Assembly: GCA_019044685.2 (NCBI GenBank)
Contig: JAGTXX020000012.1
Span: 124,001 to 188,000, forward strand
Direction of reading: 5' to 3'
Origin: Nannochloris sp. 'desiccata'
Taxonomy: Eukaryota; Chlorophyta; Trebouxiophyceae; Chlorellales; Chlorellaceae
Length of the DNA: 64,000 bases
Shown here: positions 40,789 to 43,552 of the stretch, piece by piece
Position numbering within the stretch: position 1 is the first letter of the stretch
How the letters are laid out: each line of letters starts with the position of its first letter
Translations under genes and position numbers: made by a program
The notes under the pieces: model-generated
The model's database searches: none
What the model saw: the letters and a program-made list of their open reading frames with translations, nothing else
What the model was told of the DNA's origin: nothing

Positions 40789-41328
40789 CTACATATCTCG
40801 AGCATACTTTTCACAAATCTCCGCTAAATCTTGTACACCGCTTGAAGGCATCACATCTGCCAATGGCAACGTAGATTTCCCTTGTCCTAACTTCACAGGC
40901 ACTTGAGACATCAAACTATCAAGCATAGATTGACTAAAACCTTGGCCTTGAATAGTAGACCCCAATTTTTCTGCCAAGGCATCGGCCACTGTCGCTGCAG
41001 CTCCTGGTGCGATTTTCACATCTTTAAGGTACAAATGCCATCCCTGAACATCAATATAGCATTGATCGCCAATTTTGGATGATAATTCTTCATATGGGCT
41101 GCGCGAGCCTTTGGTTTTAGCGACAAATCCGGCCAGATCGAGCCATGAAGAGACAGCGTCATCACCCACGCCAGCTGGAACGATGATGCTTTTGTTGCTA
41201 CTGCGTTTTTGTTGTTTATAACTAAGTTGATGGACACATGGTGTGATTTGAGAGCGAGATGATGATGTTCTGGTGTATGTAAGGTGTATGCGAGAGCACA
41301 GCACTGGTGCAGAGCAGAAGCAAGCCAT
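40789..41328 (-). CDS. DUF3181-family plastid protein
   Basis: 179 residues, no intron. Residues 1-55 are Ser/Thr/Arg-rich and lack acidic residues, like a transit peptide. The remaining part contains LSSKIGDQCYIDVQGWHLYL followed by KDVKIAPGA, LAEKLGS and the conserved SQVPVKLGQGKSTLPLADVM. From memory this fits cyanobacterial DUF3181 (IY.D...WHLYL.DA ... VPV.LGGG...IPL.DL.P). Function is unknown; the family is conserved in cyanobacteria and plastid-bearing eukaryotes. It is divergent from the SelU-like gene (228 bp between starts). Confidence 0.65.
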   Translation of the reverse strand: MACFCSAPVLCSRIHLTYTRTSSSRSQITPCVHQLSYKQQKRSSNKSIIVPAGVGDDAVSSWLDLAGFVAKTKGSRSPYEELSSKIGDQCYIDVQGWHLYLKDVKIAPGAAATVADALAEKLGSTIQGQGFSQSMLDSLMSQVPVKLGQGKSTLPLADVMPSSGVQDLAEICEKYARDM

Positions 41329-41556: not shown

Positions 41557-42333
41557 ATGTTCTGCAAGGCATTGCCTGGCACCGTGGTCGCGAAGACCCT
41601 GGTCAGCAGGTCCCACTCTGCAATTGTAAATACCACCAGACAATCGAGAATTTCTAAACTTAGTGTCCGTGCATTTACCTTTGACAGCAGCAACCCATCT
41701 ACTTCTCCTGCCGATATTGAAGACTCTGCATACCCAGCATTACAAGCAGTCTCTGGCGTCTCTCTGGTTTCTTCTCAACAAAATGTCACGATCACCGACT
41801 TGTGGCAACCCAACCAACCGTGTGTCCTTGCTTTAGGTAGATCAATGGGATGACCTTTCTGCTGGGCGCTGGCACAGCAACTCCAATCGGAGGTCCGCCC
41901 AGCGCTCGATGCAGCAGGTGTGCAGATGTTATTGCTGTCCATCGGCACAAAAGAAAGAGGTCTTGAGTTTTGTGAAAGAACGGGTTTTGATTCTTCTCGA
42001 TTATTGGCAGACCCCGAGAGCAACAGCTACGCTCCTTTAGGTATGAAGAAGGGCGTGAAAGAAACATTTTTCAGTAAAGAAACACCCAATGCTATTTGGG
42101 AGGATATGAAGACTGGGAGGATTGAAACTCTGAAAGGTGTCATGAAGGTCTGGATCAAACAAAAATTATGGATCCCGCCTCAGCAAGATCAAGCTTTCCA
42201 GCAAGGTGGCGTTGTAATATTTGATGGAGAGAAGGTAGTGTGGGTCTGGAGAGATCCTGCTACTGGAGCACATGCGGATTTAAAGGAAGTTGTGAGAGTA
42301 GCAACGGCCTTGGCATCAGTAAAGAGCTCTTAA
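41557..42333 (+). CDS. SELENOU: SelU/PRXL2-type peroxiredoxin-like selenoprotein (UGA = Sec)
   Basis: A single open frame of 259 codons interrupted only by TGA at 41851-41853 (codon 99). Both sides are in the same frame and belong to one AhpC/TSA_2 (PF13911-type) domain: TITDLWQPNQPCVLALGRSM, then G-U-P-F-C, WALAQQLQSEVRPALDAAGV, QMLLLSIGTKERGLEFCERT, FDSSRLLADPESNSYAPLG and QGGVVIFDGEKVVWVWRDPA. In Cys homologues this position is the catalytic Cys of GCP.C, so the UGA falls exactly where SelU proteins use selenocysteine (UxxC, U99/C102). The only way to splice out the TGA (GT 41836 to AG 41876, 41 nt) breaks the frame and deletes the motif. N-terminal ~45 residues look like a transit peptide. 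A SECIS-like hairpin lies in the 3' UTR at 42404-42476. Confidence 0.85.
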
Positions 42334-42692
42334 AAGAGAGAGAATCGACCGCTGTGGTTGTTTTCTTTGTTTCTTACCTTTTCTTCGTCCTGTTAAAAAT
42401 TAAGGATTTTCATTATGACGCCTGAATTGCCGACACTGCGTATTAAGCAGAGGGTTTAGGCCGACGCCTGAAAGCCAAAATTTTGATGAGAAGAAGAAGA
42501 AGAAGAGAGGCAGAGGAAGAAGATTAACAGCGGTTGCAGCTGCCTCAGACAGGCTGTGGCGCCTAAGAGAACCTTTATGGAAAAGACACCTCAAACCTAC
42601 AATGTTGTTTGAATTTGAATTTGAAACATAAACAAAACTTAATCCTTAGTAGTAAAACCCTTTGTTTCGTTTAATTGTAAAGTTGTCTTACG
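42334..42692. other. 3' UTR of SelU-like gene and upstream region of HAD gene
   Basis: 359 bp. Contains the SECIS candidate (42404-42476), a GAGGCAG/CTGCCTC inverted repeat (about 42507-42552), and TGTAA at 42676-42680, so a transcript using that poly(A) site would include the SECIS candidate. Confidence 0.5.
42404..42476 (+). promoter_or_regulatory. Candidate eukaryotic SECIS element
   Basis: Paired by hand. Helix I: 42404-42412 with 42469-42476 (8 bp, one bulged A). Internal loop, then the quartet strands ATGAC (42415-42419) and CGAC (42462-42465), giving tandem G.A/A.G pairs. Helix II: GCCTGAATT (42420-42428) with GGTTTAGGC (42453-42461), 9 bp including three G-U. An apical bulge GCCGACA contains CC about 11-12 nt after ATGA, then a mini-helix CTGC (42436-42439)/GCAG (42447-42450), as in form-2 SECIS. 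The usual apical AA would be CC, a variant known from some animal SECIS elements. It lies 70 nt past the stop codon. Confidence 0.5.
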
Positions 42693-43552
42693 ATGAACTC
42701 GATTAAAGCTTTAGTAATTGATGTCAACGGTACGCTCTTCAACCCGATTTCTGCTACTTCCGACGTATTTAAAGACCTTGGAATAGATCCAAATTCAGTA
42801 CAGGTGCGGCATTTACTAAAAAAGTTCTCTTCTCAGTCTGAGTAAAATTTTCATCTGCATCGTGAGATCCCGTCGATGACTGATTTTTGGTAATCTTTTT
42901 TTGTTTCCTGAAGCTCTGGTTTGCCGAGTTGATGCGTGATGCATTCGCAGCACAGCTTGCAGGAGTCTTTGCACCTTTTAAAGACTATGCCGGACATCAC
43001 CTAGCTCGCAGAATACCAGAGAGTGATCATGGTGCAACCACCACTTCAGAAGAGGCCGCAGCAAAATTAGTCCAAGCTTGGACTTGCTTTGCTGAACCTT
43101 ATCCCGATATTTCCAGCGGAATTACACAACTCCAAATGGCCGGAATGAAAATTGCTGTGCTTACCAATGGATCTGTCAAAATTGCAACGGCTGTACTAAA
43201 AAAAGCAGGCCTTCTCTCAGAAGAAGAACACAACAAATCCACAGCCGTTGGCGAAATTGCTACGACAAACCCGAACAACAATATTGCTATATTTGATATA
43301 AATGAAACGTTAGCCTGGAAACCCGCGAAAGAATCATACCATTTTGTATGCAATGCCCTAGCTCTTCCTCCGAGCAACGTACTAATGGTCGCAAGTCACC
43401 CTTGGGACTGTCACGGCGCCTTGCAAGCGGGCATGAAGGCAGCATATGTTCAACGAGATCCTCGTGACCCGTATCCTGAGTTCTTGGATCAACCGCAGAT
43501 ACGAGTTACCGATTTTAAAGAGCTTGCAGAGACCTTGCTTCAGCTTGGATAA
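42693..43552 (+). CDS. HAD-superfamily hydrolase, 2-haloacid dehalogenase-like
   Basis: Exons 42693-42803 and 42914-43552 (110-bp intron, phase 0); 249 residues. Motif I near the start is IDVNGTLFNP instead of the usual D.DGTL or D.YGTL; the nucleophile Asp10 is present and the second acidic position of motif I is Asn. The cap begins LWFAELMRDAFAAQLAGVFA, typical of type II haloacid dehalogenases. Motif II is VLTNGS, and the C-terminal part has DINETLAWKPAKESYHFVCN (Lys of motif III) and MVASHPWDCHGALQAGMKAA, matching the VAAH.WD..GA...G dehalogenase consensus. No clear targeting peptide. Substrate unknown; the family name does not prove dehalogenation. Confidence 0.8.

Follow-up and report, generated by a model that had tools for sequence, protein, structure and literature searches.

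A nuclear gene of the trebouxiophyte alga Nannochloris sp. 'desiccata' very probably encodes a selenoprotein of the SelU type, in which UGA at codon 99 would be translated as selenocysteine (Sec) by means of eEFSec, tRNA-Sec(UCA) and a SECIS element in the 3' untranslated region (3' UTR). Nannochloris belongs to the Chlorellaceae, Trebouxiophyceae, and the gene lies on the forward strand of a 64,000-nucleotide stretch of contig JAGTXX020000012.1, hereafter the window, to which unprefixed coordinates refer. The open frame, the alignment of its UGA with Cys of homologous proteins, a suitably placed SECIS-like fold and the genes of the Sec machinery were computed directly. Together with further TGA-containing selenoprotein genes in the same genome, they support the Sec reading of UGA 99 put forward in the original prediction.

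The interrupted frame and its relatives

The SelU-type gene extends from ATG to TAA at positions 41557..42333 (+), requires no intron and yields 258 residues when the UGA is read through. As had been predicted, a single in-frame TGA (41851..41853, codon 99 of 258 codons plus TAA) interrupts an otherwise continuous frame, which is open on both sides and carries no other lesion between 41557 and 42333; the base following the TGA is C. The read-through product around U99 reads LGRSMG-U-PFCWAL, and the putative redox motif U-P-F-C, comprising the proposed Sec99 and Cys102, occupies 41851..41862.

The expectation that both flanks of the TGA belong to one AhpC/TSA_2 protein was confirmed. With C placed at residue 99, the full-length translation scored 71.3 bits against the Pfam profile PF13911 (AhpC-TSA_2, cut-off 27; match at 41881..42258), and the codons 3' of the TGA alone reached 73 bits against the same cut-off. 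The upstream half (41557-41850) taken alone matched no Pfam family. In single comparisons with four Cys homologues, it was significantly similar to P0018 (23/50 identical residues, E 3e-7), P0019 (18/45, E 2e-7) and P0009 (21/40, E 2e-7), each alignment reaching the last codon before the TGA, and gave no significant match with P0022. Since both halves match one protein family, the frame is a single coding unit and not a pair of ORFs adjoining by chance; third-position GC content is also similar on the two sides of the TGA (0.47 and 0.45). The part conserved with the Cys homologues is preceded by an N-terminal extension (41557..41700), as conservation with P0018 starts at residue 49; from its look, this extension is a possible candidate for an organelle transit peptide. 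On the opposite strand, a 179-residue ORF (40789-41328) is oriented divergently from the SelU-type gene, the two starts being about 230 bases apart, and the pair may have a common promoter region.

A protein search with the read-through product, confined to targets of 0.55 to 1.75 times the query length that share exact words with it, so that the counts are biased and shorter truncations are invisible, returned 16 matches. In 14 of them the first aligned block begins between residues 101 and 124, hence 2-25 residues past the UGA, as would be expected if gene callers cut the genes at a common Sec codon. P0009 possesses Cys at residue 99 (GCPFCW), and P0012, from Parachlorella kessleri, has residues on both sides and a gap over U99. 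In the public gene model of the latter protein this gap coincides exactly with the U99 motif, which would fit an intron placed by the annotation to dodge the UGA. Five Cys relatives of qualifying length surfaced only with P0009 as a second query, which gave 12 matches including P0009 itself. In alignment A2, built from the query and ten proteins of the second search (P0009 and P0018-P0026), Cys within GCPFC was found in P0009, P0018-P0022 and P0025, i.e., in seven of the eight proteins with a residue in the U99 column; the eighth, P0026, displays an unrelated, poorly aligned stretch there, and P0023 and P0024 are gapped. The proposed correspondence of G-TGA-P-F-C to the Cys redox motif of homologues thus holds. 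Neither the protein nor alignment A1, used as queries against IMG/VR, detected a related locus.

On the simplest reading of these alignments, the near relatives would carry a common UGA that gene callers have misread as a stop, while the other relatives have Cys; judging by the 14 matches starting past the UGA, many relatives in the databases seem to lack the active site in their annotation. More tentatively, the green-algal GUPFCW proteins might form a SelU/PRXL2 branch of their own, possibly organelle-targeted, with Sec kept in trebouxiophyte-like picoalgae and replaced by Cys in others, and widely mis-annotated in public databases as truncations of about 143-155 residues devoid of the active site.

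Selenocysteine machinery and UGA usage in the genome

The presence of the Sec machinery, proposed initially as a check of the prediction, was verified in the same assembly (21.55 Mb in 18 contigs), where tRNA-Sec, SepSecS, eEFSec, a PSTK-like gene and SelD were all found. The tRNA-Sec with anticodon TCA, i.e., tRNA-Sec(UCA), scored 75 bits, and SepSecS, the eukaryotic counterpart of the bacterial enzyme SelA named in the original prediction, 589 bits (cut-off 225). The best of the 120 listed matches to this SepSecS is a protein of Nannochloris sp. 'desiccata', with 98% identity. eEFSec was recovered in two pieces (L007 and L011; PF21208 and PF21131), with eEFSec as the best match among solved structures (E 3e-77); L005, the top match to SelB, was recognized as EF-Tu and discarded as an eEFSec candidate. 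The best NCBIfam match of the PSTK-like gene is eukaryotic PSTK at 73 bits, far under the cut-off of 382, and its comparison with solved PSTK gave an E value of 9e-9. SelD scored 291 bits (cut-off 125) and has Cys in the motif RCGGCGSK. Its locus (L013, G000:C9:736134-740087) contains this Cys-type SelD downstream of an oxidoreductase-like stretch, resembling known oxidoreductase-SelD fusions. Full Sec machinery has been reported for sequenced core chlorophytes, with one exception (PMC6627142).

Internal TGA codons at the Sec positions were also revealed in other genes of selenoprotein families. Four of the eight GPx matches in the genome contain one: three near-identical copies read NIASQUPLQN, and the fourth reads NVASKUGLTS. 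The Sec-type copies L016 (G000:C9:1364062-1364379), L017 (C17:280481-280798) and L018 (C17:379640-379957) were compared along the whole fetched stretch of 3318 nt, and L016 turned out to be 99.7% identical to either of the other two, flanks included; the three copies stem either from recent duplication of a segment or from the assembly itself. Both Rdx matches carry an internal TGA as well, one being SelT-like (FCTSUSYRG) and the other SelW-like (YCGQUHS), so that the Nannochloris genome alone offers selenoprotein candidates in the GPx, SelT, SelW and SelU families. By comparison, none of the 33 matches obtained in a set of searches that included SepSecS, eEFSec and SelD holds an internal TGA, and one has TAG; UGA is therefore not a general sense codon in this genome. 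Among three matches to KTI12 (G000:C12:311990-313224), one contains TGA and another two TAA, and these in-frame stops are perhaps introns. Apart from the SelU-type gene, PF13911 matched one locus only in this genome, L002 (G000:C6:1058804-1062145), which has Cys at the matching place after in-script splicing (RRPGCLLC); its CxxC motif is split by a 166-nt intron that begins one base past the first Cys codon.

A SECIS-like element downstream of the frame

Eukaryotic SECIS elements consist of a quartet, a helix, unpaired bases, a mini-stem and the closing strand of the quartet, and the hairpin behind the SelU-type frame was judged against this layout. A stem-loop at 42396..42484 (+), in the putative 3' UTR, has a minimum free energy (MFE) of -23.0 kcal/mol, compared with -16.2 +/- 3.0 kcal/mol for shuffled sequences, 3 of 200 of which were at least as good. 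It encloses a SECIS-like core at 42415..42465 (+), delineated by fold and descriptors and composed of ATGAC, a helix, CC, a mini-stem of 4 bp, and CGAC immediately after the helix. In the MFE fold of the core the helix is split into 6 + 3 bp and the CC, which should be free, is paired; an alternative fold, in which the 9 bp of the helix are continuous and the CC is free, has -21.3 kcal/mol and is thus less stable than the MFE fold by 1.7 kcal/mol.

A plain SECIS descriptor matched only this site in 42334-42720 (+, 387 nt), where about 0.09 matches are expected for such a length, as estimated from 30 distinct descriptor starts on both strands of the window, the candidate counted. A tighter descriptor, modelled on the elements that follow the control genes of this genome and partly post hoc, having been fixed after the candidate was known, had 3 starts in 128 kb, including the candidate; the other two correspond to about 0.006 expected in 387 nt. 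It recovered three of the four control elements, namely those of two GPx genes and SelW, and missed that of SelT, which had been chosen by eye. All four control elements and the SelU candidate start with ATGAC, partly by selection. The SelW element is weak (-5.8 kcal/mol, fourth in the energy-ranked scan), the alignment of the four control elements (A4) is poor, and for the 5' core of the SelU candidate the energy-ranked scan favored a different 3' partner (42415-42521). The Rfam SECIS models gave no match in the window and none at the four control loci, and SECIS_1 produced a single match genome-wide, below threshold and located elsewhere; being blind to the control genes too, SECIS_1 cannot decide on the SelU candidate. 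In most eukaryotes an A stands ahead of the SECIS quartet, whereas the elements of Ostreococcus tauri are described as having mostly G at this place and a long mini-stem (PMC2375036); the candidate at 42415-42465 differs from the latter in possessing A ahead of the quartet and a short mini-stem. All in all, it is a candidate SECIS with the right layout and the right place, and its strength is modest.

Alternative readings and comparison with known systems

Three other explanations of the TGA were considered. According to one of them, the TGA lies inside an overlooked intron and the mature protein is devoid of it. The original prediction dismissed splicing on the ground that the only GT-AG pair able to remove the TGA is 41 nt long, and this particular statement was wrong: among in-frame introns of at least 25 nt with donors at 41640-41851 and acceptors at 41854-42060, 80 GT-AG pairs leave an open frame, and 148 candidates do so when GC donors are added. 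The gap over the same place in the Parachlorella kessleri model P0012 also speaks for an intron. Codon 102, however, which encodes the second Cys of the motif, is retained by none of the 148 GT/GC-AG candidates, and splicing would therefore destroy the motif that is conserved in the Cys relatives; moreover, the coding sequence is conserved on both sides of the TGA. The argument against splicing thus survives on the loss of the second Cys rather than on the scarcity of intron candidates, and we consider an intron extremely improbable.

A sequencing error, or a pseudogene in which the Cys codon has been lost, would require one base change only (TGC or TGT to TGA), and the codon was assessed from the assembly. 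Against this stand the frame free of any further lesion, the SECIS-like element and the Sec machinery genes, as well as the apparent truncation of most near relatives (14/16) at this very position, a pattern not expected from an error private to one sequence; this explanation is regarded as very unlikely. Hardly credible, finally, is the idea that the stop codon is read through in the ordinary way or that UGA has been reassigned, with another amino acid inserted at codon 99. UGA followed by C is a leaky stop context, and one KTI12 fragment with TGA is not explained, but the position is that of a catalytic-type Cys in the relatives, the genome contains the genes of the Sec machinery, and an internal TGA occurs in the GPx (4/8) and Rdx (2/2) matches but in none of the 33 matches mentioned above.

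With Sec at codon 99 as the preferred reading, the gene product would be a thioredoxin-fold protein of the SelU type (PRXL2/FAM213-like). UGA 99 would be decoded by eEFSec and tRNA-Sec(UCA) recruited via the SECIS hairpin of the 3' UTR, both the insertion of Sec and the end of the transcript being predicted from the sequence. If it works like other PRXL2/SelU proteins, the protein may use the selenolate of Sec99 to attack a peroxide or a disulphide, with Cys102 of the U-P-F-C motif resolving the resulting intermediate; the substrate and a location in an organelle are likewise presumed.

Sec-containing SelU is already known from algae. In a study of 36 algal genomes, Sec-SELENOU was present in more than half and was one of the four selenoproteins most widely distributed in algae (PMC7539508), it was described in Ostreococcus tauri (PMC2375036), and SelU was mentioned as a possible member of the selenoprotein set of Picochlorum SENEW3, an alga of the same class as Nannochloris (PMC11092101). 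For Trebouxiophyceae, 0-5 selenoproteins were reported (PMC7539508). Literature searches on Nannochloris selenoproteins and on the 'desiccata' genome assembly turned up no prior report for Nannochloris. The Nannochloris gene is, consequently, a further example of a known algal selenoprotein, which would hardly surprise a specialist in the field and which provides the Trebouxiophyceae with a well-supported Sec gene.

The closest known system is SelU of algae, fish and birds, which resembles the Nannochloris gene in the AhpC/TSA_2 thioredoxin-type protein and in the (here proposed) Sec as the first residue of UxxC, and which has a 3' SECIS, matched in Nannochloris by the candidate hairpin; the species differs, and the link to SelU is based on PF13911, the motif and the name of P0022, a Cys relative from Monoraphidium called 'seleno protein U'. 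Among solved structures, the best sequence relative is PRXL2B (prostamide/prostaglandin F synthase, PDB 9us9), to which residues 75-165 align, U99 being matched with the first Cys of GCVVC; that chain has Cys, the match is weak (E 7e-4 in single comparison and 2e-5 with a profile), and the substrate may differ. The sole NCBIfam match, the SelL-related redox protein NF040769, covers residues 73-247 at 61.3 bits, which falls short of the cut-off (120). The motif of SelL is UxxU, unlike the UxxC of the Nannochloris protein. Within the same genome, the PF13911 gene L002 belongs to the same fold family and has Cys at the matching place; it is 23% identical to the SelU-type protein over 171 positions (E 0.04) and differs from it in having Cys instead of Sec and an intron within the motif.
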